64,000 nucleotides of DNA from Salinirubellus salinus (GTDB lineage: Archaea; Halobacteriota; Halobacteria; Halobacteriales; Haloarculaceae), in the NCBI RefSeq assembly GCF_025231485.1, contig NZ_CP104003.1, forward strand, positions 2,728,001 through 2,792,000, written 5' to 3'. Positions 21,105 to 62,039 of this stretch are shown one piece after another. The notes under the pieces were generated by a model. The model ran no database searches and was not told the DNA's origin. It worked only from the letters and a program-made list of their open reading frames with translations. The first letter of the stretch is position 1; each line of letters starts with the position of its first letter. Made by a program: the position numbers and the translations under genes.

Positions 21105-21805
21105 GCGAGCCGCTCCTCGACGTCAGCGACGTCTCGGCCGGCTACGACGACATGCACGTCATCGAGGGCGCGGACCTCCGGGTCGACCCCGGCGAGTTCA
21201 TCGCCATCGTCGGTCCCAACGGGGCGGGGAAGTCGACCCTGCTCCGGACCCTCGTCGGGGGGACGACGCTCTATCAGGGTACGGTCACGTACCGCGGTGA
21301 CGACATCACCTGGACGCCTCGTCACGACATCATCGAGGACGGGATCGGCTACATCCCGCAGGACGAGGCCGTCTTCCCCGACCTCACCGTCTGGGAGAAT
21401 CTACGGATGGGCGGCTACACCAGTCCCGACGGCTTCGAAGCGCGCCTCGCGGAGGTGTACGACCTGTTCCCCCGGCTCGAGGAGCGGGAGACGCAGCGTG
21501 CGGACAGTCTCTCTGGGGGGGAGAGTCGGATGCTCGCAGTCGCCCGGGCGTTGATGCCGGACCCCGAGCTGTTGCTGGTGGACGAACCCTCTGCAGGGCT
21601 GGCCCCGCAGATCGTCGAGCGGATGTTCGACAAGCTCGAGGAGATCCACGAGGACGGGACGTCGGTGCTACTCGTCGAGCAGAACGTCGACGCGGCGCTC
21701 GGCGCCGCCGACCGCATCTACACGCTCGAAGGGGGCGAGATAGACGACCGGGGGACCACCGACCAGTTCAGCGACTCGGACGCTGCCGAGCGGCTCGGCT
21801 GGTAG
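21101..21805 (+). CDS. livF: LivF-type ABC ATPase
   Basis: 234 residues. Walker A GPNGAGKST, signature LSGGESRMLAVARAL, Walker B LLLVDEPSAGLAP, switch His position replaced by Gln in LLVEQNVDAAL, as usual for LivF. It overlaps livG by 4 bp and ends the operon. Downstream at 21826-21842 there is a 17-base match to the repeat unit near nosD. Confidence 0.93.
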   Translation: MSEPLLDVSDVSAGYDDMHVIEGADLRVDPGEFIAIVGPNGAGKSTLLRTLVGGTTLYQGTVTYRGDDITWTPRHDIIEDGIGYIPQDEAVFPDLTVWENLRMGGYTSPDGFEARLAEVYDLFPRLEERETQRADSLSGGESRMLAVARALMPDPELLLVDEPSAGLAPQIVERMFDKLEEIHEDGTSVLLVEQNVDAALGAADRIYTLEGGEIDDRGTTDQFSDSDAAERLGW

Positions 21806-23653: not shown

Positions 23654-24793
23654 ATGCGACAAGATAGCACGAGTGACGGAACGAGCGGTCGCACGGGACG
23701 ACCGAGTCGTCGGCGCTTCCTCCAGTTGACCGGGGCGGCCGGCGCTGCGGGGCTCGCGGGGTGTGTCAACAGCCTCGGCGGCGGGGGGAACGACCTCGCC
23801 GACACGCTGGTCATCCAGATGGAGGGGGGGAGTATGCTCGAGGCGCTCAAGTCCGAGGCGTTCGGGCCGTTCGAGGAGGAGTTCGGTGCCTCGGTGGAGG
23901 TGAGCCTCCGGAGCAGTCAGCAGAACGGGTACGCGAAGATCAAGGCCGGGCAGGCCGAGGCCGACATGACGAGCGTCCCGCCGTTCACGCTCTACAACGG
24001 GACCAAGGAGGGGCTGTGGTCGCCCATCAGTACGGACGAGATTCCGAACTACGAGTCGAACGTCCTCGACCCGCTGAAGAACCCGGTGTTCGACCCCGGT
24101 CAGGAGGTCCACGGCATCCCCCACGCGTACGGGACGGTCGGCATGGCGTACAACAAGAACGAGCTGGACTCGCCGAGTTCGTGGAGCGTCACGTGGGACG
24201 GCTCGTACGAGGGGCACGTCGCGATGGAGGGGTTCGGCTTCATCCGCGTGTTCACGACCGCCCTCGAGATGGGGATGGACCCCAACGAGATCGGTGCGAA
24301 CGGCTCCTACGAGGAGAACATCGGGAAGATATGGGACCGGGTCGCCGAGCAGCAGGACCTGGTCGTCACGAACTGGACGAGCGGCGACGAGCAGGCCCGG
24401 CTGTTCGCCTCGGAGGACGCCTGGGTCGGCGAGGCGTGGGGGAACGTCATCTACGGCGCGGTCCAGGAGGGGAACGACCACCTCGGGTACACCATCCCCG
24501 AGGAGGGGGCGTACGGCTACACGCAGAACCACGCCATCCTGAACGACATCAGCGAGACGCGGCGCAAGACCGCCCTGGAGTTCATCAACTTCCTGCTGCG
24601 TGACGACATCCTCCAGCCGGTCACCGAGAAGCTCGGCCTGCCGCCGGCGACCTCGGTCACCTCGGACGAGATCGAGAACCTCTACGACTACGACCCCCGC
24701 GGCGGGAAGGGACTCAAGTTCCCCGACGTCGCGTACATCAACGAACACAACGACGAGTGGTCACAGCGCTGGGAAGAGATCCGAGGGAACTGA
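23654..24793 (+). CDS. potD: PotD-type polyamine ABC transporter substrate-binding lipoprotein
   Basis: 379 residues. Tat lipoprotein signal PSRRRFLQLTGAAG followed by the lipobox LAGC. The mature protein has the spermidine/putrescine-binding pattern: VHGIPHAYGTVGMAYNKNEL, VAMEGFGFIRVFTTALEMG, and AWVGEAWGNVIYGAV near the ligand site. It should capture a polyamine or related cationic compound. First gene of potDABC; regulon site 1 lies 36 nt upstream. Exact ligand not predictable. Confidence 0.88.
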   Translation: MRQDSTSDGTSGRTGRPSRRRFLQLTGAAGAAGLAGCVNSLGGGGNDLADTLVIQMEGGSMLEALKSEAFGPFEEEFGASVEVSLRSSQQNGYAKIKAGQAEADMTSVPPFTLYNGTKEGLWSPISTDEIPNYESNVLDPLKNPVFDPGQEVHGIPHAYGTVGMAYNKNELDSPSSWSVTWDGSYEGHVAMEGFGFIRVFTTALEMGMDPNEIGANGSYEENIGKIWDRVAEQQDLVVTNWTSGDEQARLFASEDAWVGEAWGNVIYGAVQEGNDHLGYTIPEEGAYGYTQNHAILNDISETRRKTALEFINFLLRDDILQPVTEKLGLPPATSVTSDEIENLYDYDPRGGKGLKFPDVAYINEHNDEWSQRWEEIRGN

Positions 24794-24826
24794 GCCGGGC
24801 GCGTCGACCACCACGTTCCACACATC

Positions 24827-25921
24827 ATGGCATTTCTAGAACTCGATAACCTCAGGAAGGAGTTCGGTGACCTCGTCGCGGTCGACGGCGTCTCGTTGAC
24901 GGTCGAGGAGGGGCAGTTCGTCACCATCGTCGGGCCGAGCGGCTGCGGGAAGTCGACCATCCTCCGGAGCATCACCGGGCTCGAGACGCCCACGAGCGGC
25001 GAGATACGACTCGAGGGGAGGGACATCACGGAGCTCCCGCCGTACCGGCGCAACATCGGGCTGGTGTTCCAGGACTACGCCCTGTTCCCACACAAGACCG
25101 TCTTCGAGAACGTCGCCTTCGGGCTGAAGATGCGCGGGGCGCCCGAGGCAGAGCAACGCGAGCGGGTCACCGAGATGCTCGAGATGGTGAACCTCGAGGG
25201 GTACGAGGAGAAGTACCCCGGCGAGTGCAGCGGTGGCGAGCAACAGCGCATCGCCGTCGCCCGGGCCATCGCGTTCGACCCGGACCTCGTGCTGATGGAC
25301 GAGCCGCTGTCCAACCTCGACAAGAACCTCCGAACGAGCATCCGGAGCGAACTCCGCCGCATCCAGGCCGAGACGGGCGTGACGACCCTGTACGTCACGC
25401 ACAACCAGAACGAGGCGCTCTCGCTGGGCGACAAGCTCGCGGTGATGAACGACGGCCGGCTCGAGCAGTACGACACGCCCGAGGACACCTACCGCGAGCC
25501 CCGGACCCGGTTCGTCGCGGACTTCCTCGGCCGCTCGACGGAGCTCCAGGGCACCTACACCCGCCCGGAGGGTGTGGCCAACCCCGTCGCCGACCTCGGC
25601 GAGGGGCTCGAACTCGAGGTGACCGCGCGTGACGGCCTGTCGAACGGCGACCCGGTCTCGCTGTTCCTCCGCGACGAGAAGGTGAAGCTCGTCAACGGGC
25701 ACGCGCCGGAGCGGAACGTCCTCGAGGGCGAGATCGAGTCCGTCGACTACCGTGGTCGCGACATCAACTACTTCATCCGTGTCCCGGAGCTCGACCGGAC
25801 GATCCAGGTGAGCCACGTCGCCGACGACAGCGCCGAGCGGTTCCACGACCTCGGTGACACGGTCCGGTTCCACATCGAGCCGGAGAACGTCACGTGCCTC
25901 CCGGCGGAGGGGACGCCGTGA
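24827..25921 (+). CDS. potA: PotA-type ABC ATPase
   Basis: 364 residues. Walker A GPSGCGKST, Q-loop LVFQDYALFPHKTVFENV, signature CSGGEQQRIAVARAI, Walker B LVLMDEPLSNLD, switch His in TLYVTHNQNEAL. A C-terminal TOBE-type domain covers about residues 245-360. Energises the Pot importer. It lies 33 bp after potD and overlaps potB by 4 bp. Confidence 0.94.
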   Translation: MAFLELDNLRKEFGDLVAVDGVSLTVEEGQFVTIVGPSGCGKSTILRSITGLETPTSGEIRLEGRDITELPPYRRNIGLVFQDYALFPHKTVFENVAFGLKMRGAPEAEQRERVTEMLEMVNLEGYEEKYPGECSGGEQQRIAVARAIAFDPDLVLMDEPLSNLDKNLRTSIRSELRRIQAETGVTTLYVTHNQNEALSLGDKLAVMNDGRLEQYDTPEDTYREPRTRFVADFLGRSTELQGTYTRPEGVANPVADLGEGLELEVTARDGLSNGDPVSLFLRDEKVKLVNGHAPERNVLEGEIESVDYRGRDINYFIRVPELDRTIQVSHVADDSAERFHDLGDTVRFHIEPENVTCLPAEGTP

Positions 25922-26829
25922 GTGCGGAGCGCTCGCGGCTGCCCGCGCTGAAAGACCGGGTGATGGAGAACGACTGGGTCCGCTTCGCCATCTCGCCCGG
26001 ACTCGGCCTCGGCTGGGTCGTCCTGTTGTTGTTCCTGCCGATGACGGTCATCCTCGCCATCTCGTTCTCCGTCCCCGGCGACTTCGGCAACGTCATCTAC
26101 GAGTTCACGCTCGAGAACTACCGGCGCTTCTGGGAGTCGGCCGTCTACAAGAACATCATCCTCGAGTCGCTGTTCTACGGGGTCGTCGTGACGGCGCTGG
26201 CCCTGCCGTTCGGCTACACCGCCGGCTACTTCCTGGGCCGCTCGAAGACCGACTGGAAGTGGATCCTCCTCGGCCTGGTCGTGCTCCAGTACTGGGTGCC
26301 GTTCATCATCCGCACCTACGCGTGGATCATCATCCTCTCGAACAACGGCGTCCTCAACCAGTTGCTGATGGGGGTCGGGTTGCTCGACGCGCCGCTCGAC
26401 ATCATGTACACGACGTACAGCATGGTGCTCGGGCTGACGGTGAGCCTGCTGCCGTTCATGATACTCCCGGTGTACGTCTCGGTGAGCACCATCGACGAGG
26501 ACCAGATCCACGCCGCGAAGACGCTGGGCGCCACCGACTTCCGCGCGTTCCGCGAGATAACGCTCCCGCAGTCGCTCCCGGGTATCGTCTCGGGCGTCCT
26601 GTTCGTGTTCATCATCGGTGCGGGTGCGTTCCTCGCGCCGACGCTGCTCGGCGGGCCGGACACGCGGATGATCGCCCCGGTCATCGAGACGGTGTTCATC
26701 CTCGACTTCAACTGGCCGTTCGCGGCGGCGCTGTCGGTCATCTACTTCGGCGTCATCGGCCTGTTGCTCTACCTGTTCACCCGGCGGGTCGACCTCGAAG
26801 AGGCACTCGACACAGGGGGGGCGGTCTGA
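25918..26829 (+). CDS. potB: PotB-type ABC permease
   Basis: 303 residues from the GTG at 25918, which overlaps the potA stop as GTGA. Six membrane segments, with the EAA loop AAKTLGATDFRAFREITLPQ needed to contact the ATPase. Typical PotB features are YWVPFIIRTYAWIIILSNNG and PTLLGGPDTRMIAPVIE. Start chosen by the overlap; an upstream ATG would lie within potA. Confidence 0.92.
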   Translation: MSAERSRLPALKDRVMENDWVRFAISPGLGLGWVVLLLFLPMTVILAISFSVPGDFGNVIYEFTLENYRRFWESAVYKNIILESLFYGVVVTALALPFGYTAGYFLGRSKTDWKWILLGLVVLQYWVPFIIRTYAWIIILSNNGVLNQLLMGVGLLDAPLDIMYTTYSMVLGLTVSLLPFMILPVYVSVSTIDEDQIHAAKTLGATDFRAFREITLPQSLPGIVSGVLFVFIIGAGAFLAPTLLGGPDTRMIAPVIETVFILDFNWPFAAALSVIYFGVIGLLLYLFTRRVDLEEALDTGGAV

Positions 26830-26830
26830 G

Positions 26831-27688
26831 ATGGCGACCGACCACGCCACCACCGGCGAGACGGACGTCGACGCCGAGCGGGGCTACTTCGGTATCACGC
26901 TCCCCTCGCACGTCAAGTGGAACCTCGTCCGCGCGACGACCGTCGTGGTCTACGTGCTGATGATCCTGCCGTTGCTCGTCATCGTCCTCAACTCGTTCAA
27001 CCCGTCGCGGCTCGGGAACTTCCCGCCGCAGTCGCTCAGCCTGCGCTGGTACGAGGCGCTGCTCGCCGACGGGCTCATGTTGCGAGCGCTGGTCAACAGC
27101 CTCCAGGTCGGCATCGCGGCGGCGCTCTGTGCCGGCCTCGTCGGCACGCTCACGGCGATGGGGTTCGTCCGCAAGCGGTTCCGGCTGAAGAACGGGCTGG
27201 TCATCGTGCTGCTCTCGCCGCTGCTGGTTCCGCCCATCATCGTCGGGGTGGCGGCGACCATCTTCTTCGGCCAGCTCGGCGTCGGGCGCTCGCTCTGGTG
27301 GCTCATCGTGATGCACACCCTGCTCGGGCTCCCGTACGCGTTCCTCATCATCCGGAGTCAGCTCTACCTCTTCGACGAGACGCTCGAGGAGGCCGCCCGG
27401 ACGCTCGGGGCCGACCGGCTCACCACGTTCCGGGAGGTCACCTTCCCCATCATCGCGCCGTCCATCGTCACGGCGATGGTGATCGTCTTCGTCATCTCGT
27501 TCGGCGAGTTCACCGCGACCCAGTTCTGGGTCGAGCGGACGACGACGACGGTCCCGGTCGTCATCTTCTCGATGCTGCGGACGAGCATCAGCCCGAAGAT
27601 CGACGCCCTCGCGACGGTCATGCTGGTCGTGACCATCGCGGTCCCGGCCCTGTTGCTCGGGGCGCGGCGCTGGCTGTTCGAGCACTGA
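26831..27688 (+). CDS. potC: PotC-type ABC permease
   Basis: 285 residues, six membrane segments. EAA loop is EEAARTLGADRLTTFREVTF, preceded by LLGLPYAFLIIRSQLYLFDE. It follows potB by 1 bp and completes the importer. The gene converges on the racemase gene, 30 bp away. Confidence 0.92.
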   Translation: MATDHATTGETDVDAERGYFGITLPSHVKWNLVRATTVVVYVLMILPLLVIVLNSFNPSRLGNFPPQSLSLRWYEALLADGLMLRALVNSLQVGIAAALCAGLVGTLTAMGFVRKRFRLKNGLVIVLLSPLLVPPIIVGVAATIFFGQLGVGRSLWWLIVMHTLLGLPYAFLIIRSQLYLFDETLEEAARTLGADRLTTFREVTFPIIAPSIVTAMVIVFVISFGEFTATQFWVERTTTTVPVVIFSMLRTSISPKIDALATVMLVVTIAVPALLLGARRWLFEH

Positions 27689-49464: not shown

Positions 49465-51681
49465 TCAGTCCCCGCCGTCGGGGGCGAGGAGTTCCACGGG
49501 GTGTCGCGGCGGGTCCCCGAGCAGGTCCTCCAGCTGGTCGGTGCAGGAGGTGCCGCTGGCCACGACGTGGTCGGCCTCGAGCGACCGGAACTGCTCGCCG
49601 AGGTTCTCCCCCACGTCCATCGAGAGGTCGTAGTACTGTTCTTTGTAGCCGAACGAGCCGGCCATCCCGCAGCACTCGACGTCGCTCGTGGTCACCTCGT
49701 AGCCCCGCTGTTCGAGGACGGCGACGGTGTACTCCGCCAGCCCCATCGTCCGTTGCTGGCAGTGACTGTGGTAGGCGACCGACGCCGGTCCGCCGGCCGA
49801 CGCGAGCGCGTCGGCGTCGGCCCCGTTCGCCACCAGCCCGTAGACGTACTCGACGGCCTCGTAGCTGTGCTCGGCGAGGGGTTCGTACGCCTCGGCGGGC
49901 AGCAGGTGCGCGTAGTCCTCGCGGAACATCGCGAGGTCACTCGGCTCCAGGACCACCACGTCGTAGCCGTCCTCGACGTACGGCCCGAGCGCGTCGGCGA
50001 CCCGCTCGGCCTTCGACCGGGCGGTGGCGATCATCCCCTGTGAGAGGGGGGCGCGGCCAGCGCCCGGGGCCCGCGGGACGACCACCTCGACGCCGAGGGC
50101 CTCCAGTGTCCGGACGGCGGCCTTCCCCCGCTCGACCAGCATGTGGTTGGTGTAGACGTCGGGGTAGAAGACGGCCTTGCGCTCCGGGTCCGCGGGCACC
50201 CGGGAGTCCCGGTCATCGAACCAGTCGACGAGCGTCTCGCGCTGGAAGGCGGGAAACTCCCGCCGGCGGTCGACCCCGACCGTGCGTTCGAGCAGTCCCT
50301 TGACCGGGCCAGCGTTCGCCACCCAGTTCGAGAGGGGCGCGAACGTGCTCCCGAGCTTCGCCAGCGTCTCGAAGTTGCCGAACAGCCGCTTCTGGAGCTC
50401 CGGCCCGCCGCCGGACTCGGCGTCCGGGGTCAGGCCGTCGACGAGGAAGTCGAACTGGCCGGCGTCCCCCGAGCGGTTGATGCGGTCGCGGACCACCGTG
50501 TTGATCCACGGGATGTCGATCTTCACGGGGCAGGCCTCGACACAGCGCGAGCAGCCCGTACAGAGGTCGTTGAACTCGGCGGCGGTGTCCAGCCCCTCGA
50601 CGCCGGCCTCCCAGCCGGTGGCGATACCACCGGAGTACGTCTCCCCACCGAACGCGTGGCCCCCGACGGACTGGAAGTTCGCACACGTGTTCGAGCAGGC
50701 GCTACACCGGATGCAGTAGAGGGTCTCGCGCAAGGTGTCGTCCTCGCGCATCGCCAGCCGGCCGTTGTCGACGAGGACGAGGTGGAACTCCCGGTCGGGG
50801 CTCCCCTCGGTGATGGGCGTCTCGGGGTCGTCGAAGTCGACGGTCGGGGACTCGACCGGCGGCGTCAGCAGCGAGACGTAGCTCGTGATGTCCTGACCCG
50901 TCCCGGAGCGACCGATGAGTTCGACGAACGGCTGGAGGTCCTCGACGGACGGGACGACCTTCTCGACGCCCGCGACCGCGATGTGGGTGTCCGGGACGGT
51001 CACCGTCTTCCGGGCGTTGCCCTCGCTGGTGACCAGCGCCATCGTCCCCGTGTCGGCCGTGAGGAAGTTCGCGCCGGTCATCCCGACGTCGGCGCCCTTG
51101 ATGCGTTCGAGCAACTGCTCGCGGGCGAACATGGTGAGTTCCTCGGCCGTCTCCAGCGGCTCGTCGGGGTCGAAGCGCTCGTTGAACAGGGCCGCGATGC
51201 CCTCGCGGGACTTGTGGATGGCCGGGGCGACGATGTGGCTGGGGGACTCGTCGGCCACCTGGAGCACCCACTCACCGAGGTCTGTCTCCACGACGTCGAC
51301 GCCGCGGGCCTGGAGGTAGTCGTTGACCTCGATCTCCTCGCTGGTCATCGACTTGCTCTTGACGAGTCGCTCCGCGTCGCGGGCCTCGCAGACCTCGGCG
51401 ACGTACCGGTTGGCGTCGGCCGCGTCCTCGGCGACGTAGACCGTCCCACCGTTGGCCTCGACCGTCTCGGTCAGTTCCTCGAGGAGTTCGGGGAGCCGCT
51501 CGATGGCGTCCTCCTTTATCTCGCGGGCCTCCTGGCGGAGTCGCTGGTAGTCGTCGAGTTTGGCGACCGACTCGTACCGGCCGGTGTTGAACCCGCGGGT
51601 GTTCGTGGCGACGGCGTCGCCCTCCGTCTCGAGGAGTTCCCGGATGCGGGCGGCCTTCGCCTCGTGGCCTTTCGAACTCAT
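49465..51681 (-). CDS. LutB-LutA fusion: LUD domain, 4Fe-4S ferredoxin and CCG domain
   Basis: 738 residues from the ATG at 51681. The N-terminal LUD domain (about 20-310: VYVAEDAADANRYVAEVCEA, VKSKSMTSEEIEVNDYLQAR, VGMTGANFLTADTGTMALVT) is followed by two iron-sulfur motifs (CIRCSACSNTCANF, CTGCSRCVEACPVKIDIP). This is LutB/LldF. The last 300 residues are a CCG domain (YHSHCQQRTMG, VECCGMAGSFGYKE, SGTSCTDQLE), which is LutA/LldE in other organisms. So two subunits of the L-lactate-oxidising LutABC complex are joined. The ATG overlaps the lutC stop (ATGA). Confidence 0.92.
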   Translation of the reverse strand: MSSKGHEAKAARIRELLETEGDAVATNTRGFNTGRYESVAKLDDYQRLRQEAREIKEDAIERLPELLEELTETVEANGGTVYVAEDAADANRYVAEVCEARDAERLVKSKSMTSEEIEVNDYLQARGVDVVETDLGEWVLQVADESPSHIVAPAIHKSREGIAALFNERFDPDEPLETAEELTMFAREQLLERIKGADVGMTGANFLTADTGTMALVTSEGNARKTVTVPDTHIAVAGVEKVVPSVEDLQPFVELIGRSGTGQDITSYVSLLTPPVESPTVDFDDPETPITEGSPDREFHLVLVDNGRLAMREDDTLRETLYCIRCSACSNTCANFQSVGGHAFGGETYSGGIATGWEAGVEGLDTAAEFNDLCTGCSRCVEACPVKIDIPWINTVVRDRINRSGDAGQFDFLVDGLTPDAESGGGPELQKRLFGNFETLAKLGSTFAPLSNWVANAGPVKGLLERTVGVDRRREFPAFQRETLVDWFDDRDSRVPADPERKAVFYPDVYTNHMLVERGKAAVRTLEALGVEVVVPRAPGAGRAPLSQGMIATARSKAERVADALGPYVEDGYDVVVLEPSDLAMFREDYAHLLPAEAYEPLAEHSYEAVEYVYGLVANGADADALASAGGPASVAYHSHCQQRTMGLAEYTVAVLEQRGYEVTTSDVECCGMAGSFGYKEQYYDLSMDVGENLGEQFRSLEADHVVASGTSCTDQLEDLLGDPPRHPVELLAPDGGD

Positions 51682-52178
51682 CGCACCACCACCACGTCGA
51701 CCGCCTTCGGGCCGTGTGCGCCCTTCACGAGTTCGCCCATGTCGGCCGTCGCCGACGGGCCGGTCGCCAGGATGGCCGACCCGTACGTGGCACGGAACGT
51801 CTCGCCCAGCCGGTCGAACGCCGCCGCCATGTCGGGGAGGACGTCCGCCTCGCGCAGGACCGCGACGTGCCGGTCGGGAAACAGGCTCACCGGCTCGGTC
51901 CCGTCCGGGGTCGCCCGGAGCGCGATGCTCCCGTAGTCGGCGACGGCGAACGCCGCGGCGGTGACGCCCGTGACCGCCTCGTCCAGCTCGGCCGGCGTCG
52001 GGTCGGTCCGGACGTCCTCCGGGAGCGTCACGTCCGCCCACGGCAGTGCGGCACCGACCGCCGGCCGCTCGACCAGCGTCTCGATGGTGCTTGACGCGTC
52101 GGCGGCGGCGACCCGCGTGACCTCGACACCGAAGTCCGCGGCGCGCGAGGCGAACCGGTCGTAGGGCTCGGCCGTCAT
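51678..52178 (-). CDS. lutC: LutC-type LUD-domain protein
   Basis: 166 residues from the ATG at 52178 (MTAEPYDRF); a GTG at 52187 is possible. It is a LUD-domain protein: AAFAVADYGSIALRATPDGT, SLFPDRHVAVLREADVLPDM, ILATGPSATADMGELVKGAHGP. These are LutC/LldG features. With the following LutB-LutA fusion it completes a LutABC-type L-lactate oxidation system. It overlaps the fusion gene by 4 bp and is first in the operon; an ACATAGTT element on the minus strand near 52210 may be the promoter. Confidence 0.92.
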   Translation of the reverse strand: MTAEPYDRFASRAADFGVEVTRVAAADASSTIETLVERPAVGAALPWADVTLPEDVRTDPTPAELDEAVTGVTAAAFAVADYGSIALRATPDGTEPVSLFPDRHVAVLREADVLPDMAAAFDRLGETFRATYGSAILATGPSATADMGELVKGAHGPKAVDVVVVR

Positions 52179-52371
52179 CTCGGCCACACCGGGTCACCCC
52201 ACGGACAACTATGTGTTGGCATGACATGGAACAGTTCGAGTGGACGTACTTCTAAGTTGCGTCGGCCGACAGCCCGGGCGTCGACGGGCGGCGCCCGAGG
52301 ACCACGCCGAGGCCGCTCTACCCTCGCCGACGGCAGGGGGCCTCGGAGCGGGGCGACGGGGCCTGCAATAG

Positions 52372-52403: not shown

Positions 52404-53849
52404 ATGAGCGACGATCAGGAGGGGTTCACAGGTGTGCGACGGACGCTGGAACGTCACCTCCGGGGCTCGACCGACAGTCAGGAGACGCTGGTCCTCAGCG
52501 ACGACGACGGCTACGTCGGGGATACGATCACGTTCAAGGGTCGGAACCTGGAGCCGGACCAGCGGTACGAGGTGGTCTGGCACTCCGTCCAGGGGAGGTG
52601 GGGGGTGTTGCAGGCCAACGAGGTGGTCGGCCAGCAGTACCAGCCCCGGCGCGAGACCATCCTGACGGTCACGGCCAGCGCGTCTGGGGCCTTCAACGAG
52701 ACGTGGACGGTGCCCGAGGACTACGGTGGGACCCACCGGGTCGAACTCCAGAAGGGGGGGACGACCGTCGCTCGGAACACGTTCGACATCACGCCCTGGT
52801 TCGAACTCAAACAGACGGAGGCCCCGCTGGGCGAGGCGTTCACCATCGTCGGGTACGGGCTGGGGCCGGAGGCGACGACCAACAACTACCAGGTGGTCTG
52901 GGACACCGGCAACGTCGGGTTCATGACCGGGGTGATGAACCGGGGGACGGCGACGGCACAGATCCGAGCCGTGGGGCCGCCGGGGCCCCACACCATCCAG
53001 GTGTGGCGTAACTACCGTGGCATCCCCTACCTCCAGAACAACACCCAGTCGCCGTTCGGGCCGGTCGCGGGGGGCCGGCAGTCGCAGTGGACCGTGGAGG
53101 TCACAGAACGGGACGATCCGCCGGAGACCGCCTGGGTGGAGGGCATGTTCGACGAGAGTCCGATCAGCCTCCACTACCCGGAGCTCGACGAGGACACCGA
53201 CGCGACGCTCGAGATCGCACCCACCTGCGGCCAACCGGGGACGGCCGCCATCCTCACCGGCACCGACTTCCCGCCGAACACGGAGGTCGACCTCGTCTGG
53301 TACCAGCACTACGGCCAGGGAATCAGAGGCCCCGACGTCACGACGAAGCCACGTGAGGGCGTGTTGCCCACGGTGACGAGCGACGCGGACGGTCGCTTCC
53401 AGGTCGAGTTCGAGGTCCCGCTCGCGGAGGGCTCGACGCGACCCATCGCAGCGGCCGTCGACGGCCGGACCGTGGCCGTGACGGGGTTCATGGTCCAGCC
53501 GTCCATCGAGCGGTTCGAGCCGACGAGCGGGCCGGTGGGGACGGAGATCGAGATCGAACTCTCGGGCATCGGCTGGACCGCCTACGAGAACGCCCCCTAC
53601 TTCGTCTACGACAACAAACCGCTCGGGTACGCCTGTGGGATGACCGACGAACACAAGACGACCACCGTCGAGGTGGCGTTCCAGGCGTCCGGGCAGCCGG
53701 GGTACCACTTCATCGACGTCTACCCGTCAATCTTCGAGATGCAGGAGGACGAACCCGAGGTCGAGATCAAACCCCACCTGTCGTACCTCGACAACCACCC
53801 CGTCCGGCCGCTCCCGGGCATGCACATGGTGTTCGAGGTCACGGAGTGA
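52404..53849 (+). CDS. IPT/TIG-like multi-repeat protein, paralog A
   Basis: 481 residues from the ATG at 52404. No Sec, Tat or membrane segment is seen, so it should stay in the cytoplasm unless exported in an unknown way. At least four beta-sandwich repeats begin with the IPT/TIG-like 'G..v.i.G.gf.p': YVGDTITFKGRNLEPDQRYE (about 43), PLGEAFTIVGYGLGPEATTN, QPGTAAILTGTDFPPNTEVD and PVGTEIEIELSGIGWTAYEN. Between them are highly conserved unusual blocks (WHSVQGRWGVLQANEVVGQQ, NNTQSPFGPVAGGRQ, LSYLDNHPVRPLPG). The gene at 60418-61884 is a close paralog, about two thirds identical by eye and co-linear end to end. I do not recognise a named family. It opens a cluster with a methyltransferase and an ABC importer. 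Confidence 0.8.
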   Translation: MSDDQEGFTGVRRTLERHLRGSTDSQETLVLSDDDGYVGDTITFKGRNLEPDQRYEVVWHSVQGRWGVLQANEVVGQQYQPRRETILTVTASASGAFNETWTVPEDYGGTHRVELQKGGTTVARNTFDITPWFELKQTEAPLGEAFTIVGYGLGPEATTNNYQVVWDTGNVGFMTGVMNRGTATAQIRAVGPPGPHTIQVWRNYRGIPYLQNNTQSPFGPVAGGRQSQWTVEVTERDDPPETAWVEGMFDESPISLHYPELDEDTDATLEIAPTCGQPGTAAILTGTDFPPNTEVDLVWYQHYGQGIRGPDVTTKPREGVLPTVTSDADGRFQVEFEVPLAEGSTRPIAAAVDGRTVAVTGFMVQPSIERFEPTSGPVGTEIEIELSGIGWTAYENAPYFVYDNKPLGYACGMTDEHKTTTVEVAFQASGQPGYHFIDVYPSIFEMQEDEPEVEIKPHLSYLDNHPVRPLPGMHMVFEVTE

Positions 53850-53943
53850 CGGTCCCGGACACTCTCCCAGTCCGGCGACGGGGAATCCACGTCGGAGGTG
53901 ACAGACGAGTGGATTTTTGTACGGGCACGTGGGACCAACCCCC

Positions 53944-54873
53944 ATGGACGAGGACGCGATATACAACAGACACTTCGAGGTGTTCCTGCTGTGGGCCTGC
54001 CGCGAGACCGGCGTCGTCGACGAACTGCTCGCCGGGACGGAGGGAACGGCCGCGCTCGCCGCCGGCGCGGGCATAACGGAACGGGCGGCGGACATCGTCC
54101 TCGGGTGTCTCGTCGAACTGGGGTACGCCGAGCGGGCCGACGGCGGCTACCGGGCGACGGAGTCCCTCCGGGTGCTCGACCCCGAGGCGGACGTCCTCGA
54201 CCGGGGGATGCTCCCCCACCGGCTCGACTCGCTGGAGAACTACATGCAGCTCCCGGAGGTGATGCGGACCGGCGAGCCGCCCGAGCACACCGACGCGGGG
54301 TTCCGGAACTTCGTCGGGGCCATGGCGACCGTCGAGGACGTGGCCGTCCGCGAGATCGTCACGACCGTCGAGCACGCCCACCCGCGACCGGACACCGTCC
54401 TCGACGTCGGTGGCGGGCCCGGCCGGTTCGGGGCGGAGTTCGCCCGACGCGGGGCGGACGTCGCGCTGTTCGACCGGCCGGGCGTGCTCGACCTCCTCGA
54501 GTCACACCACGCCGACCTCGGCCTCGACGTGGTGGCGGGTGACGCCCTCGAGTCGCTCCCCGCGGGCTTCGACCTCGTGTTCAGCGCCCGGATGACCACC
54601 TCGTTCACCCCCGCGGACCTGCGGGCGTACTTCGAGAACGCGTTCGACGCCCTCAAGCCCGGCGGGACGTTCGTCTGTACCGAGCGGGTCAGGGGCATGT
54701 CCGAGATGGACAACCGGTTCGCGTTCCACATGCTGACGCTGACCGACACGGGGAACACGCACACCGCCGACGAGTACCGGTCGGCCCTAGAGGACGTCGG
54801 CTTCGTCGACGTCGAGATCGATGACGTCCCCCGGACCGAGTTCCAGACGGTCGTGGGTCGGAAGGAGCGCTGA
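53944..54873 (+). CDS. Class I SAM-dependent methyltransferase (O-methyltransferase type)
   Basis: 309 residues from the ATG at 53944, which is 28 nt after a TATA-like GATTTTTG (53912-53919). The N-terminal part is a winged-helix-like dimerisation domain (VFLLWACRETGVVDELLAGT, AGITERAADIVLGCLVELGY), as in plant- and antibiotic-type O-methyltransferases. The SAM motif is TVLDVGGGPGRFGAEFARRG, followed by ADVALFDRPGVL and ALKPGGTFVCTERV. It lies between paralog A and the fused ATPase on the same strand, so it may modify the imported compound (inference). Substrate unknown. Confidence 0.88.
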   Translation: MDEDAIYNRHFEVFLLWACRETGVVDELLAGTEGTAALAAGAGITERAADIVLGCLVELGYAERADGGYRATESLRVLDPEADVLDRGMLPHRLDSLENYMQLPEVMRTGEPPEHTDAGFRNFVGAMATVEDVAVREIVTTVEHAHPRPDTVLDVGGGPGRFGAEFARRGADVALFDRPGVLDLLESHHADLGLDVVAGDALESLPAGFDLVFSARMTTSFTPADLRAYFENAFDALKPGGTFVCTERVRGMSEMDNRFAFHMLTLTDTGNTHTADEYRSALEDVGFVDVEIDDVPRTEFQTVVGRKER

Positions 54874-54948
54874 GTCGGGCGACGTGTCGTGACACCGACC
54901 GACCCGACCCCGCGAAGAGTTTTGCCCGGTGGGGCGCAACGGGAGGCC

Positions 54949-56619
54949 GTGCCCGGGGGACGACTCGAGACGGAGGGACTCACGAAGACGTTCGGCGACG
55001 TCGTGGCGGCCGACGACGTCACGGTCACCTTCGAGCCGGGGGAGTGTCACGGCATCATCGGGCCGAACGGCTCCGGGAAGACCACGCTGTTCGACCTCGT
55101 CATGGGGTTCCAGCGGCCCGACAGCGGTGTCGTGCGGTTCGACGGCGAGGACATCACCGGGATGCGACCAGATCAGGTCGCCCGTCGCGGGCTCGTCCGG
55201 ACCTTCCAGATAACCGCCCCCTTCGAGCGACTCACCGTCCGCGAGAACCTGCTGAGCGTCTACACCGGCGGGCTGGGGTCGGGGCTCCGCGTCCCCACCG
55301 AGACCCACGAGCGGGCCGCCGAACTACTCGACCTGCTCGACCTCGACCGCGTCGCCGACCACGACGCGAGCGACATCTCGGGCGGCCAGCAGAAGCTCCT
55401 CGAACTCGGCCGGGCGACGATGCTGGAGCCGGAGTGTGTCCTCCTCGACGAGCCGACTGCGGGCGTCAACCCCGCCATCCAGGACCGGGTGCTCTCGGCG
55501 CTCCGCGAGATGAACGACGGCGGGACCACGGTCGTCGTCATCGAGCACGACATGAGTGTCGTCGGGGACATCGCCGACCGGATCACGGTCCTCGACGGCG
55601 GCCGCGTCCTGACACAGGGCGCGTTCTCGACGGTCACGAGCGACGAGCGCGTCAGGGACGCCTACATCGGGACCCGGACGGACCGGGCGACAGGGACCGA
55701 CGGGGAGATGCCGGCGACCGAGACCGAGACTGGAACCGAGACCCAGACCGGGACCGGGACCGAAGTCGAGGCCGGTACCCCGACGCCCGGCGTCGTCGCG
55801 GAGTCGAGGGCGCGCCGGCCGGCGCCGGCCGAGAGCGACGCAGAGAGCCGGGTCGCACGAGCACTCGCGTCGAGGGCGGACGGCGACGAGGACGACGAAC
55901 GGGGACCGGTCGACCGTCTGGTCGCCCGGAACGTCACGGCCGGCTACGGGAAGCAGGTCGTGCTCGACGGCGTCTCGGTCAAGAGCCACGATGGGATCAC
56001 GTGCGTGTTCGGGCCGAACGGCTCGGGAAAGTCGACACTCCTCAAGCTGCTCGGGGGCGTCGTACCGGTCCGGTCGGGAGCCATCGAGTACGGCGGCCGG
56101 CCGCTCACCGGGCTCGAACCGCACGAGATCGTCCGGGCCGGAATCACGACGGTCCCGCAAGACCGGCGGACGTTCGCCGGGCTCACCGTCCGCGAGAACC
56201 TCCAGCTGGGGGCCACCACCGTCGACGACGAGGCCGTGGTCGACGCGCGGATAGAGGTGGTCCTGGACCTGTTTCCCGCGCTGGCCGCGTCGCTCTCCGA
56301 GCCGGCGCGGTCGCTCTCCGGTGGCCAGCAGGTGATGCTCGGCCTCGGGTGGGCGATGATGACGGGGGCCGACGTGTACCTCCTCGACGAGCCGCTCAGC
56401 GGGCTGGCACCGTCCGCCGTCGACGACCTCTTCGACGTCCTCCGGACCCTCGTCGACCGGGGCATCCAGATCGTACTGGTCGAACAGCACGTCCGGGAGG
56501 CCATGACCGTCGCGGACCACGTCTACGTCCTCTCGCAGGGACGGATACAGTTCGACGGGCCGCCCGAGGCACTCGAGAGCGAGGACCGCCTCGTCGAGCT
56601 CTACCTCGGGCTCGAGTGA
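54949..56619 (+). CDS. LivG-LivF fused ABC ATPase
   Basis: 556 residues from the GTG at 54949; another GTG at 54889 would add 20 unconserved residues. Two complete ATPase domains. The first is LivG-like: GPNGSGKTTLFDLVMGF, ISGGQQKLLELGRA, CVLLDEPTAGVNP, VVIEHDMSVVGD. The second is LivF-like: GPNGSGKSTLLKLLGG, LSGGQQVMLGLGWAMM, VYLLDEPLSGLAP, VLVEQHVREAMT. A linker of about 70 residues rich in Thr/Glu/Gly (TETETGTETQTG) joins them. In most organisms these are two genes, as in the operon at 20310-21805. Partner permeases are on the opposite strand just downstream. Confidence 0.92.
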   Translation: MPGGRLETEGLTKTFGDVVAADDVTVTFEPGECHGIIGPNGSGKTTLFDLVMGFQRPDSGVVRFDGEDITGMRPDQVARRGLVRTFQITAPFERLTVRENLLSVYTGGLGSGLRVPTETHERAAELLDLLDLDRVADHDASDISGGQQKLLELGRATMLEPECVLLDEPTAGVNPAIQDRVLSALREMNDGGTTVVVIEHDMSVVGDIADRITVLDGGRVLTQGAFSTVTSDERVRDAYIGTRTDRATGTDGEMPATETETGTETQTGTGTEVEAGTPTPGVVAESRARRPAPAESDAESRVARALASRADGDEDDERGPVDRLVARNVTAGYGKQVVLDGVSVKSHDGITCVFGPNGSGKSTLLKLLGGVVPVRSGAIEYGGRPLTGLEPHEIVRAGITTVPQDRRTFAGLTVRENLQLGATTVDDEAVVDARIEVVLDLFPALAASLSEPARSLSGGQQVMLGLGWAMMTGADVYLLDEPLSGLAPSAVDDLFDVLRTLVDRGIQIVLVEQHVREAMTVADHVYVLSQGRIQFDGPPEALESEDRLVELYLGLE

Positions 56620-56634
56620 CGGACGACCGGGCGG

Positions 56635-57858
56635 TCAGCGGTCGGGCTCCGAGCGGTCGCCTGCCGCCGGGTCGCCGCGCCCACCGTCACTCTCGGCCCG
56701 TCGCTCGTCGGTGCCGTGGGGGGACGGCCCCTCCGTGGCCGCCGGCGGTGCCTCCCGCTGCCCCTCGGTCTCGCCCTGGGCGGTGGCCAACGCCTCGGCG
56801 ACTCGCGACGGCCAGGTGACGACCCCACCGGGCGTCCGGAGGACGACGAGGAGGAGGACGACCCCGTAGACGACCTCCTGAAGTTCCGGGACGCCGACGG
56901 CCTCGCGTGCCACCTCGCTCGTCACGGTCAGGAGGAGCGAACCCACGATGGGGCCGAAGATGGTGCCGAGGCCACCGACGACGGCCGGCAGCAGGATGTC
57001 GAGGTTCACCAGCAGCCCGAAGACGACCCGGGGGCGGATGGAGACGAAGTACATGCTCCAGAGCGTCCCGGCCCACGCGGTGAAGAACGCGCTCACGACG
57101 AGCGCGAAGAGCTTGTACCGAATGGTCGGGATCCCGACGGCGCTGGCCGCGGCCTCGTCGTCGCGGATGGCGAACAGGTACAGCCCGATACGTGACCGCT
57201 TGATGACGAGTGCCACGAGCGAGACGACCAGCAGGAGCCCGAGGGCGACGTAGTAGTACGGGAGCGTCTCCCGGAACTGGAACGCGAGGAGGCCGTACTC
57301 GGCGCCGTAGGCGTCCGGGAACGGCTTGACGAAGCCGCTGGCGCCACCGAGCTGGTCGACGTTGATGAACAGGTACAGCAGGAGTTCCGCGAACGCGAGC
57401 GTGACGAGCGCGAAGTAGCTCCCGCCGACGCCGTAGCGGAAGCTGAGCCCGCCGATACAGAGGGCGTAAGCACCCGCGAGGAGACTTCCGGCGAGCATCC
57501 CGAGCCAGGGATTGACGGCGAACTCGCGGCTCAGGACGAGCGGGACGTAGGCACCGAGGCCGAAGAACGCCGCGTGGCCGAACGAGAACTGCCCGGAGAA
57601 CCCGGAGACGATGTTCCAGCTCTGTGCGGCCGTCGCCCAGAGCAGCGCGACGACGAGGATGTTCAGACTCAGGAGGGCCCCGAGCCGCGTCCCGAAGACG
57701 GGGACGTCGAGCGACAGGGGGAGGACCGCGAGGCCGACGAGCAGGCCCACACCCAGCACCGGGGTGGCGTACCAGCGCCCACGCCAGTCTCCGAGCGTCT
57801 CGGCGAGGCTCCCGGCGCGCCGCTGGAGCCGGGCGAGCGACTGCGACCGGTCAGGCAC
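56635..57858 (-). CDS. LivM-type ABC permease with acidic C-terminal tail
   Basis: 407 residues, GTG start at 57858 overlapping the upstream permease stop by 8 bp. About ten membrane segments. Family patterns: AQSWNIVSGFSGQFSFGHAA, GGSYFALVTLAFAELLLYLF, and the EAA-type AIRDDEAAASAVGIPTIRYK. The last 60 residues are hydrophilic (ETEGQREAPPAATEGPS) and are not found in the livM of the first operon. Works with the fused ATPase 16 bp away on the other strand (convergent). Confidence 0.9.
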   Translation of the reverse strand: MPDRSQSLARLQRRAGSLAETLGDWRGRWYATPVLGVGLLVGLAVLPLSLDVPVFGTRLGALLSLNILVVALLWATAAQSWNIVSGFSGQFSFGHAAFFGLGAYVPLVLSREFAVNPWLGMLAGSLLAGAYALCIGGLSFRYGVGGSYFALVTLAFAELLLYLFINVDQLGGASGFVKPFPDAYGAEYGLLAFQFRETLPYYYVALGLLLVVSLVALVIKRSRIGLYLFAIRDDEAAASAVGIPTIRYKLFALVVSAFFTAWAGTLWSMYFVSIRPRVVFGLLVNLDILLPAVVGGLGTIFGPIVGSLLLTVTSEVAREAVGVPELQEVVYGVVLLLVVLRTPGGVVTWPSRVAEALATAQGETEGQREAPPAATEGPSPHGTDERRAESDGGRGDPAAGDRSEPDR

Positions 57859-58744
57859 GGGTCGGCCCCCCGAACAGCCCCGTGGGCTTGACCAGCAACA
57901 CCGCGATGAACACGAGCAGGATGAGGACGTTGTAGTACGACCCGGGGAGGTAGAACGCGCCGAACACGCGGATCATGCCGACGAGCAGGCCACCGAGGAC
58001 GGCCCCGCGGATAGAGCCGAGGCCGCCGAGGACGACCACCACGAACGCGACGGTCAGATACGCGTTCCCGAGGTACGGGTCGAACGGCTGGACGAACGTG
58101 ATGAGCGCGCCGGCCAGCCCGGCGAGGGCGGCCCCCAGGCCGAACGTGAGGTAGTCGATCCGCCGGACGTCGATGCCGACGTAGGCGGCGTTCAGCCGGT
58201 TGTCGGCGGTCCCGCGGATGGCTCGACCGATGTGTGTCCGGTGCAGGAACGTCCAGACCACCGCCGAGGTGGCCGCGGCGACGAGCAGCGCGTACAGCTC
58301 CCCCTCGGGGACGTACACGTCGGCGAACCCCCAGCTGCCGAAGCCGGTCGACAGCTGGCGGGGGGTCGCGGTGAACGTCATCTCGACGAGGGCGACGATG
58401 ATGATGAGGAAGGCGACGGTGACGAGGAACTTGTTCCCCTGGGCCTCCTCCCCGAGGGGTGCGAGCGTCGTCCGCTGTATCAGGACCCCGATGCCGAACA
58501 GGACCACGGCGGCCAGCGGGATGCCGAGGAACGGCGAGAGCTCCAGCCGCGCCGCGACGAACCAGACGGCGTACATCCCGACGACGGTGAAGGCACCGTG
58601 CGCAACGTTGACGACCTCCATGACGCCGAAGATGATGGTGAGCCCGAGCGAGACGAACGCGTAGATGCTCCCCAGGAGGACCCCGAGGACGAGGAGCTGG
58701 GCGAACACCGCCGGCCCGACGAGCAACGGCTGGGAGGCTAGCAC
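57851..58744 (-). CDS. LivH-type ABC permease
   Basis: 297 residues, GTG start at 58744. The LivH N-terminal signature SLGLTIIFGVMEVVNVAHGA is clear. The cytoplasmic loop IRGTADNRLNAAYVGIDVRR and LGGLGSIRGAVLGGLLVGMI follow. Second membrane subunit of the cluster's importer. It lies 69 bp after the binding-protein gene and overlaps the LivM-type gene. Confidence 0.91.
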   Translation of the reverse strand: MLASQPLLVGPAVFAQLLVLGVLLGSIYAFVSLGLTIIFGVMEVVNVAHGAFTVVGMYAVWFVAARLELSPFLGIPLAAVVLFGIGVLIQRTTLAPLGEEAQGNKFLVTVAFLIIIVALVEMTFTATPRQLSTGFGSWGFADVYVPEGELYALLVAAATSAVVWTFLHRTHIGRAIRGTADNRLNAAYVGIDVRRIDYLTFGLGAALAGLAGALITFVQPFDPYLGNAYLTVAFVVVVLGGLGSIRGAVLGGLLVGMIRVFGAFYLPGSYYNVLILLVFIAVLLVKPTGLFGGPTRA

Positions 58745-58813
58745 CGACCCCTCCGTCGGCCGGGGGACCAGCGGCCGTGTCCACGGCTGAGGGGGTGCCA
58801 GGTCATGGGCCCC

Positions 58814-60181
58814 TCAGTTCTGGCCGATGAGTTCGGGCTGGACCTCGACCGTCGCGTACTCCTCGGGGTAGACCACCTGCGCCTCCATGTCCTGGATCTG
58901 GTTCATCACCGAGAGGGGGTTGGCGTTCTCGCCGCGCTCGGTGAACGAGATCGGTGGCATCGCCATGATGTGCTCGTCGACGGTGATGTCGTCGAGCGTC
59001 CGGCGCAGCACCTCCGGGTCGGCGCTCCCCGCCTGTTCGAACGCCTCGATGACGACCTCCGCGGTCGTGTAGGCCATGCCGATGTTGCCTTTCATCGCGG
59101 GGGTGTCGAAGGTCTGCATGTACCGCTCGTTGATGCGCTGGGCCTTCTCCTGTGTCAGGTCGATCTGGTACCCCGAGGAGAGCGCCCCGTCGATGACGTC
59201 TCCCATCTTCTGGAAGTTCTCGGTGTACATGCCACCGCTGGCACACGCCGCGAACACGTCCGGCCAGTAGTTCTGGTCCTGCATCGCCTTGACCAGTTCC
59301 AGCATCTGGTTCGTGAACACCGTCGGGAAGATGGCGTCCGGGTCGGCTTGCCTGAACCGCGTGACCTGACTGTCGGCCGTCCCACCGAACCCGATGCTCG
59401 CGGTCTCGACGACCTCCATGTTCGTCCCCTCGATGGCGCGCTCGAGCCCGTCACGGATGGCCTGTCCGTAGGTGGTGTCCACGTAGAACAGCCCGACGGT
59501 CTCGATGTCGAGCCCCGCCCGGTCGGCGACGGCAGTCAGCCCCTCGACGTGGTCGGCCGACTGGCTCCAGGAGTTGGGTTGCGCCCGGTAGACGTACTCG
59601 AGGTCGCGTTCCTGGAGCAGCGACGCGGCGACCGAGATGTCGATGACGAACGGCACGCCCTCGGACTCGGCGACCCGGGTCGCGGCGTTGGTCACGGGCG
59701 AGGAGTACGTCCCGGTGAGGATGTCCGCACCCCGGTCGATGAGTTCGCCCGTGACCTCCCCACCAACGGCGGGGTCGTTCTTGTGGTCGCCCTGGAGCAC
59801 CTTCACCTCGGCACCGTCCATCGACTGGATACCGCCCTCCTCGTTCTTGACCGTCGCGGCCATCCGGACGGCATTGTGGAGACGGTTCCCGACGTAGGAG
59901 GTGCTCCCCGTGAGGGGGTGGACCGAGCCGATGACCACCTCGTCGGGGTAGTCGGTCGACGTGCTCGTGACGGTCGGCGTCCGCGTGGCAGTCCCGGTCC
60001 CGTCCCCAGCGGGGGTCTCCGTCCCCTCGCCGCCGGCACACCCGGCGAACGTCACCAGCGATGCCGTCGCCCCGGCCGCGAGGAACGCGCGTCGCGAGCG
60101 GCGGCCGTCGGGTCGGGTCGACGCGTCGGAGTCGGACACGGCCTGGGCGCCCTCCGTCTGTTTCGAATCACCGTCGGACAT
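58814..60181 (-). CDS. Branched-chain-type ABC substrate-binding lipoprotein
   Basis: 455 residues from the ATG at 60181; an ATG at 60190 is in frame, but the TATA element at 60204-60213 predicts a transcript start near 60182, which favours 60181. Tat lipoprotein signal RRSRRAFLAAGATASLVTFA followed by GCAG. A Thr-rich linker follows. The binding-protein fold begins VVIGSVHPLTGSTSYVGNRL and has AATVKNEEGGIQSMDGAEVK, GTYSSPVTNAATRVAESEGV and GNIGMAYTTAEVVIEAFEQA. Family HAAT/LivK; ligand unknown. Leads the minus-strand half of the cluster's transporter. Confidence 0.91.
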   Translation of the reverse strand: MSDGDSKQTEGAQAVSDSDASTRPDGRRSRRAFLAAGATASLVTFAGCAGGEGTETPAGDGTGTATRTPTVTSTSTDYPDEVVIGSVHPLTGSTSYVGNRLHNAVRMAATVKNEEGGIQSMDGAEVKVLQGDHKNDPAVGGEVTGELIDRGADILTGTYSSPVTNAATRVAESEGVPFVIDISVAASLLQERDLEYVYRAQPNSWSQSADHVEGLTAVADRAGLDIETVGLFYVDTTYGQAIRDGLERAIEGTNMEVVETASIGFGGTADSQVTRFRQADPDAIFPTVFTNQMLELVKAMQDQNYWPDVFAACASGGMYTENFQKMGDVIDGALSSGYQIDLTQEKAQRINERYMQTFDTPAMKGNIGMAYTTAEVVIEAFEQAGSADPEVLRRTLDDITVDEHIMAMPPISFTERGENANPLSVMNQIQDMEAQVVYPEEYATVEVQPELIGQN

Positions 60182-60203
60182 GCCAGCCATTCGAGCAGAC
60201 AGA

Positions 60204-60213
60204 CGTTTAAAAG
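60204..60213 (-). promoter_or_regulatory. TATA element of the second binding-protein gene
   Basis: CGTTTAAAAG on the plus strand (CTTTTAAACG in the sense of transcription), centred about 27 nt before the ATG at 60181: leaderless spacing. Confidence 0.65.
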
Positions 60214-60417
60214 TACTGGAAAGTTATCTACAAATGTGGTTTTCGATAAGGTTGGTAACGTGATTTCTGCGCTCGAGTTTCGTACAGTAACGTGAATTTT
60301 TCACCCCAATCGAGGACCCGAATCCCGATAGACGCCAGGAAGAGTGGTCGAGACACGAGCGCAGGGTGCGCTGCCCGCCCGCCCCGACCACGAGGGTGAA
60401 GTGGACAGACGGTCAGC

Positions 60418-61884
60418 TCACTCCGTCACTTCGAAGGCGAAGTGGAAAGCAGGGAGCGGGCGGACTGGGTGGTTGTCGAGGTACGACAGGTGGGGTTTGA
60501 GCTGGAAGTCGGGGTGGTCGTCCTCGACCCAGAACAGGGACGGGTACGCATCGATGAAGTGCCAGCCGGGTTCGCCCGTCGCGTGCAGGACCGGATTCAC
60601 GGTGCCGGTCTCGTCGTCGCCACCCGTCCCGCACAGGTACCCGAGTGGCTTGTTGTCGTAGACGAAGTAGGGGGCGTTCTCGTAGGCGGTCCAGCCGATG
60701 CCCGAGAGTTCGATCTCGATCTCCGTCCCCACCGGCCCACTCGTCGGCTCGAACCGCTCGATGGACGGTTGCATCATGAACCCGGTGGCGGCGACCTGTC
60801 GCCCGCCGACGGCGGCCGTGATGGGACGCGTCGACCCGATGTCGGTCGGGATGGTCACCTCGGTCTGGAAGCGACCGTCCGCGTCGCTCGTCACCGTCGG
60901 CAAGACGTCGGGTTTCGCCACCGGGCCGATCTTCGGGTCGGGCGTCGAGGAGGTCCCACGTGGCTCGTGGCCCTCGTGGCGGTACCAGACGAGGTCGACC
61001 TCCGTGTTCGGCTCGAACTGCCGTCCGGTGATGATCGCCGTCGTCCCGGCCTGCCCACACTGTGGGCTGATCTCCAGTTCGGCGTCCGTCTCGTCGGCGA
61101 GCCCCCGGTAGTGGAGGTCGATGGGTGACTCGTCGAACAGGTCGTCCATCCAGGCAGTCCGGGGGGCCGACTCGGGCTCGCTCACCTCGACCCGCCACGC
61201 GGTCTGGCGGCCGCCCGCGACCGACCCGAACGGTGACTGCGTGTTGTTGAGCAGGTACGGGACCCCGCGGTAGTTGCGCCACACCTGGAGGACGTGCTCG
61301 CCCGGAGGCCCGACCGCACGGACCTCCGCGGTCGCCGTCCCCCGGTTCTGCACGCCGGTGAGGAATCCGACGTAGCCGTTGTCCCAGGCCACCTGATAGT
61401 TGTTCTGCATGACGTCCGGGCCGAGGCCGTACCCCCGGAGGGTGAACGTCTCGCCCATCGGGGCCTCGGTCCGGTCGAGTTCGAACCACGGGACGAGTTC
61501 GAGTTCGGCCGTGGCGACCGGCTCCTCGGCGTCGGCCTGCACCTCGATGCGGTGGGTCCCCCCGTACTCGTCGGGGATGGTCCACTCCGCGTCGAACGCC
61601 CCCGAGTCGTCGGCCTCGACGGTGAGGATGGTCTCGGACCGCGGTCGGAACTGTGGCCCGACGATCTCGTTGGCCTGGAGTACCCCCCAGCTCCCCTGGA
61701 CCGAGTGCCAAACCACGTCGAACGCCTCCCCCGGCGGAAAGTTCCGTCCCTTGAACGTGACCGTGTCCCCGACGTACGCTTTCTCGTCGCTCAGTACGAG
61801 CGTCCCCGAACGCTCGGTGCCCTCACCCTGCCGACGCGAGGTGCGGCCGCGCCTCGCGGTGGACTCGTCCGGTCGCTCTGTCAT
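60418..61884 (-). CDS. IPT/TIG-like multi-repeat protein, paralog B
   Basis: 488 residues from the ATG at 61884. It has the same plan as the protein at 52404-53849, with four IPT/TIG-like repeats (YVGDTVTFKGRNFPPGEAFD, PMGETFTLRGYGLGPDVMQN, QAGTTAIITGRQFEPNTEVD, PVGTEIEIELSGIGWTAYEN). The last is identical to the paralog over more than 50 residues around it, ending TGFM.QPSIERFEPTSG and YFVYDNKPLGY. The C-termini are nearly the same (LSYLDNHPVRPLP, FEVTE). No export signal. Differences: a GTSSTPDPKIGPVAKPD insertion before repeat four and a different N-terminal 30 residues. Promoter is leaderless. Unknown family. Confidence 0.8.
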   Translation of the reverse strand: MTERPDESTARRGRTSRRQGEGTERSGTLVLSDEKAYVGDTVTFKGRNFPPGEAFDVVWHSVQGSWGVLQANEIVGPQFRPRSETILTVEADDSGAFDAEWTIPDEYGGTHRIEVQADAEEPVATAELELVPWFELDRTEAPMGETFTLRGYGLGPDVMQNNYQVAWDNGYVGFLTGVQNRGTATAEVRAVGPPGEHVLQVWRNYRGVPYLLNNTQSPFGSVAGGRQTAWRVEVSEPESAPRTAWMDDLFDESPIDLHYRGLADETDAELEISPQCGQAGTTAIITGRQFEPNTEVDLVWYRHEGHEPRGTSSTPDPKIGPVAKPDVLPTVTSDADGRFQTEVTIPTDIGSTRPITAAVGGRQVAATGFMMQPSIERFEPTSGPVGTEIEIELSGIGWTAYENAPYFVYDNKPLGYLCGTGGDDETGTVNPVLHATGEPGWHFIDAYPSLFWVEDDHPDFQLKPHLSYLDNHPVRPLPAFHFAFEVTE

Positions 61885-62003: not shown

Positions 62004-62039
62004 GGGAGGACGTAGTAGGGGTGGGTGAGTAACACTAGC

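Follow-up and report, generated by a model that had tools for sequence, protein, structure and literature searches.

TIG-ABAB, a rare and undescribed family of Ig-like proteins in haloarchaea, and its secreted Ig-repeat lipoprotein and CoxG-like partners

Most TIG/Ig-repeat proteins are exported adhesion or cell-surface proteins, and an extracellular or DNA-binding context is typical of TIG proteins. CoxG-like proteins, by comparison, anchor soluble oxidoreductases to the membrane, as shown for the Sulfolobus G3PDH and also discussed for CO dehydrogenase and 3-hydroxypyridine dehydrogenase (PMC11962113). Here, we describe TIG-ABAB, the name we give to the family of two haloarchaeal paralogs, A and B, which is rare, strongly conserved and undescribed. 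Profile, structure and PADLOC searches match TIG-ABAB to no characterised family, and literature searches on TIG, DoxX, CoxG and dihydroxyphthalate decarboxylase in connection with haloarchaea yield nothing on it. A role in anti-phage defence was rejected, with PADLOC returning no match for the paralogs, the lipoprotein or the CoxG-like protein and, for the neighbouring methyltransferase, nothing beyond the generic SAM domain of mad2. Below, we document the domain architecture, conservation, obligate co-occurrence and operon partners of the family, and we infer a possible substrate class, anchoring by CoxG and a binding or scaffold role.

The paralogs are encoded in the window, a 64,000-nucleotide stretch of a haloarchaeal chromosome (G000:C1:2728001-2792000), where an earlier note had described a block at 52404-61884 with a signal-less paralog at each outer end and a methyltransferase and branched-chain-type importer between them. 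Reading frames agree with the lengths, strands and coordinates given for A and B, a pairwise comparison yields 67% identity where the note had estimated about two thirds, and profile searches recover the methyltransferase, fused ATPase, two permeases and binding protein. The block is not the whole unit, which takes in a DoxX gene and extends past the window's right end with genes for a flavoredoxin, a CoxG-like protein and Ig lipoproteins. The features are as follows, in window positions unless a chromosome position is given.

52404..53849, + strand: paralog A, a signal-less TIG-like ABAB protein of 481 aa, TATA box ~30 bp upstream
53944..54873, + strand: O-methyltransferase-like SAM enzyme, start at 53917 (TTG) or 53944 (ATG)
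54889..56619, + strand: fused LivG-LivF-type ABC ATPase with two nucleotide-binding domains, a UrtD/LivG-like and a UrtE/LivF-like half
56635..57858, - strand: LivM/UrtC-type permease
57851..58744, - strand: LivH/UrtB-type permease
58814..60190, - strand: Tat-exported substrate-binding protein (Peripla_BP_6), own TATA-like box before the start
60418..61884, - strand: paralog B, a signal-less TIG-like ABAB protein of 488 aa
62040..62570, + strand: membrane protein of the DoxX family, read divergently from B, start at 62025 (GTG) or 62040 (ATG)
G000:C1:2792500-2793153: flavoredoxin, beyond the window end
G000:C1:2793340-2793759 (locus L078): CoxG-like protein, ~1.3-1.8 kb beyond the window end
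G000:C1:2793817-2794851 and G000:C1:2795155-2795784: Ig-repeat lipoproteins

The off-window flavoredoxin, CoxG-like and lipoprotein genes lie 0.5 to 3.8 kb past the window end (window-equivalent 64500-67784). Past the lipoprotein genes, a short-chain dehydrogenase, an SCP-x-type thiolase and an OB-fold ChsH2-like protein form a typical acyl-CoA set (G000:C1:2795901-2798254; L078:6902-9252). Directly left of A and outside the conserved module, positions 49465-52187 encode LUD-domain and 4Fe-4S lactate-utilisation-type proteins (LldF/LldG-like). Two further apparent importer sets, a Liv-type one at 17361-21805 and another at 23726-27688, were recognised in the window from gene order and N-terminal sequences only.

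Each paralog comprises four Ig-like domains, as had been proposed. The TIG profile PF01833 scores 27.4 and 26.4 bits over the whole proteins against a gathering cut-off of 20.9, with no individual stretch of A or B significant alone, and the match is absent in some homologs. A structure model of A, built from a five-sequence alignment, is an all-beta chain of four sandwich domains with a mean pLDDT of only 64, and its lowest-confidence parts are the most conserved loops. Structure modelling covered proteins of the window and of loci L014 and L015. A fold search with this model returned only generic multi-Ig chains at TM-scores of ~0.2 or less, and the best hit of the A profile among solved structures, at 0.027, is not significant. 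Compared as profiles, the two halves of the family match at E 2e-22, with a probability of 99.5%. The similarity pairs domain 1 with domain 3 (E 2e-18) and domain 2 with domain 4 (E 2e-9), while adjacent domains show no match to each other. This pattern indicates that a unit of two Ig/TIG-like domains was duplicated in tandem, hence ABAB.

TIG-ABAB is found in 22 of 392 Halobacteriales genomes and 12 of 95 genera, with two copies in several genomes and a patchy presence inside several genera. Weak matches outside Halobacteriales (e.g., L067) reflect a single generic Ig domain and were dismissed. In the family tree, B clusters firmly with the second copies found in Halonotius, G332 and G282 (support 98/96), and A groups, weakly, with the methyltransferase-adjacent copies of four other genomes (85/65). 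A and B are therefore old paralogs brought or kept together rather than a recent local duplicate.

Two partners define the TIG-ABAB module, a secreted Ig-repeat lipoprotein and a CoxG-like protein. A full-length, Tat-exported Ig-repeat lipoprotein is encoded in exactly the 22 genomes that carry TIG-ABAB, with no genome having one alone; the remaining lipoprotein matches are weak and mostly span the N-terminal export signal only. The CoxG-like protein (PF06240, 1e-21) is present in 18 of 19 sampled TIG-ABAB genomes, scores of at least 177 bits occur only there (the next is 155), and its gene adjoins the lipoprotein gene in 19 loci. The earlier note lacks both partners because their genes lie outside the window, beginning 1.3 kb past its end. 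The lipoprotein has no match among solved structures in a profile search, and its structure model (pLDDT 53) is too poor for a fold search.

Gene maps of 28 TIG-ABAB copies reveal a much more variable outer neighbourhood. The next co-directional gene encodes a NitT/TauT permease in 9 copies, a 4,5-dihydroxyphthalate-decarboxylase-like protein in 6 (with stop and start overlapping by one base in three of them), a methyltransferase in 5 (A-type copies from five genomes) and a binding protein in 2. Among the mapped copies, the Liv importer was seen in the window genome only, a polyamine-type importer is found at other loci, and no importer lies near four of the methyltransferase-linked copies. 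In the window genome, the Liv/urea part list is complete, with two LivH/LivM permeases, fused LivG/LivF ATPases and a Peripla_BP_6 binding protein whose nearest solved chain is 8wch (1e-28). Only the UrtE-like half exceeds its equivalog cut-off (317.6 vs 285.8), and the permeases and binding protein score far below theirs. The nearest solved relatives of the methyltransferase are DnrK-type (aromatic) O-methyltransferases (2e-11). The earlier note had guessed at a pathway for uptake and modification: the tie to uptake genes holds, but most homologs occur without an adjoining methyltransferase and with importers of other classes, so the methyltransferase and branched-chain importer are not the defining system. 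Because the importer classes differ, no single substrate is implied. A DsrO/TtrB-like FeS protein, an NrfD protein and a Tat-type 2Fe-2S protein (lipoprotein) recur beside the module in ~8-9 genomes without an obvious catalytic subunit (L019:16297-19297, L023, L048, L050, L053, L059, L022 and L056).

The enzymes linked to the module hint at aromatic or heteroaromatic acids as substrates. The 4,5-dihydroxyphthalate-decarboxylase-like protein matches the solved 4,5-dihydroxyphthalate decarboxylase 9jp7 (9e-48), three loci encode an enzyme of the xanthine-dehydrogenase/4-hydroxybenzoyl-CoA-reductase type, and one encodes a UbiD decarboxylase. Given these enzyme partners and the anchoring by CoxG known elsewhere, we tentatively favour an accessory core in which TIG-ABAB, together with the Ig lipoprotein and the CoxG-like protein, may link variable importers to enzymes acting on such acids, with TIG-ABAB itself as a cytoplasmic binding or docking protein. 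Firstly, a small organic substrate would be captured outside the cell by the Ig lipoprotein and a binding protein. It would then be imported by an ABC importer, the class of which differs between genomes. Thirdly, TIG-ABAB, held at the membrane via the cytoplasmic CoxG-like protein, would use its conserved loops to bind the substrate or would dock the soluble enzymes that modify it. Finally, a lineage-specific enzyme would act on it, be it the 4,5-dihydroxyphthalate-decarboxylase-like protein, the O-methyltransferase-like protein, a xanthine-dehydrogenase-type hydroxylase or UbiD, and, where a redox step is present, electrons may be handed to the membrane. Several observations count against this model. 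The aromatic-linked enzymes vary between loci, and the mapped loci hold single enzymes that differ between genomes rather than a full set for one aromatic compound. The structure model of A is of medium quality, and in the window genome the CoxG-like reading frame is interrupted by a TAG stop after ~140 codons, through either a sequence error or real decay.

Alternatively, TIG-ABAB may itself be an enzyme acting on the imported compound, its homologous halves making up two composite sites with residues of the long conserved loops, namely W59/W66, N212-Q215-P217, W391, D403-N404 and Y461/H465-P466. The earlier note had drawn attention to strictly conserved loops between the repeats, and the alignment corroborates this: 57 columns, many of them in loops, are invariant across 31 homologs (30 haloarchaeal and one from Deinococcus). 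Identity across families is 52-67%, and loop residues are invariant out to Deinococcus. The loops of this uncharacterised family probably form an active or binding site, as had been suggested. Such conservation is far stricter than in structural Ig domains, and the translational coupling to the decarboxylase-like gene likewise speaks for an enzyme. However, TIG-ABAB has no cofactor motif and no match to a catalytic family, and several of its conserved histidines sit at PGxH positions that look structural, so we regard a catalytic TIG-ABAB as unlikely.

A module of sulfur or other respiratory metabolism is a serious rival, if a doubtful one. A sulfonate-type importer, DoxX, flavoredoxin and the FeS/NrfD/2Fe-2S genes recur as neighbours, and DmsR-type regulators lie upstream at several TIG-ABAB loci. 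DoxX orthologs adjoin the TIG-like gene in 12 loci, and the ten best DoxX matches among the 392 genomes are those adjoining it. Against this stand the lack of a shared catalytic subunit and the importer, DoxX and FeS matches, which fall far below equivalog cut-offs. DoxX is also linked to TIG-ABAB in no more than about half the genomes; as a core member it was rejected because its family is widespread without TIG-ABAB.

The compartment of TIG-ABAB bears on a further alternative, namely that it is exported to serve in adhesion or at the cell surface, with the haloarchaeal copies leaving by a signal-peptide-free route. None of the 30 haloarchaeal copies has a signal peptide, in line with what had been reported for A and B, and their start codons are fixed by TATA boxes ~30 bp before the ATG in a leaderless system. 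These boxes are present in the block and recur in homologs; the near-leaderless spacing stressed in the earlier note is thus real, but it was rejected as a distinguishing feature because leaderless transcripts are usual in haloarchaea. The haloarchaeal copies also share operons with cytoplasmic enzymes. What speaks for export is the obligate partner, which is secreted in haloarchaea as well, and the homolog in Deinococcus. Plasmid p_2 of Deinococcus sp. D7000 is the only plasmid record with a TIG-ABAB homolog (29% identity over 94% of the query, 4e-44), and the gene immediately before it encodes a lipoprotein homolog. Among the 196 ORFs of this region, each of the two profiles picks a single gene, the TIG-ABAB profile at 3e-60 and the lipoprotein profile, at 6e-12, its neighbour. 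Both members of the pair (L071:14374-16356) are annotated as hypothetical and carry signal peptides, that of the TIG-ABAB homolog being typical and N-terminal as read from the sequence; no CoxG, DoxX or importer gene lies alongside in the plasmid region. The cytoplasmic, CoxG-anchored role is therefore not the role of the whole family, and a TIG-typical context is not what was found: the haloarchaeal copies are signal-less, and the Deinococcus homolog is predicted to be exported. A surface role for the haloarchaeal proteins nevertheless appears quite unlikely. A chance neighbourhood, with an independent conserved TIG protein among unrelated genes, would suit the varying importer class and enzymes but is very improbable given that TIG-ABAB and the lipoprotein co-occur exactly, in 22 of 22 genomes, and that their adjacency is repeated in Deinococcus. 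It is already refuted for both the lipoprotein and the CoxG-like protein.

The unit actually extends past the block first proposed and is more interesting in one respect, in that its Ig partner is obligate and recurs in Deinococcus. TIG-ABAB and the secreted Ig partner could even constitute a new cross-domain pair (archaea and Deinococcus) for substrate handling or catalysis, in which an Ig scaffold with a binding or catalytic site would be combined with varied importers, a broad reading that we consider improbable. With its exact co-occurrence, residue-level conservation between archaea and Deinococcus and switch of compartment, the pair is well placed to represent a new principle of substrate handling. 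If the favoured reading of an accessory core for aromatic acids is true, the module offers a concrete entry to a poorly known part of haloarchaeal catabolism and shows one accessory core combined with different importers.

How, then, does the module compare with described systems? With IPT/TIG proteins (PF01833), TIG-ABAB shares an Ig-like fold signature, its whole-protein score lying just above the gathering score. It differs in lacking any single significant domain, in its ABAB layout and long invariant loops, and in being probably cytoplasmic in haloarchaea and always accompanied by a specific secreted partner. As in CoxG-anchored dehydrogenases such as CO dehydrogenase and the Sulfolobus G3PDH (PMC11962113), the gene for a CoxG-family protein accompanies that of a soluble protein which may have to be positioned at the membrane; here, however, the core partner is an Ig-repeat protein rather than a dehydrogenase, and there is no common catalytic subunit. 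The operon partner in six loci is homologous to 4,5-dihydroxyphthalate decarboxylase, but no phthalate dioxygenase was identified nearby, and the haloarchaeal protein is a putative decarboxylase. Finally, NitT/TauT- and Liv-type import clusters with catabolic enzymes likewise place importer and enzyme genes in a single operon, whereas the arrangement described here combines a fixed three-protein core with importers of varied class.
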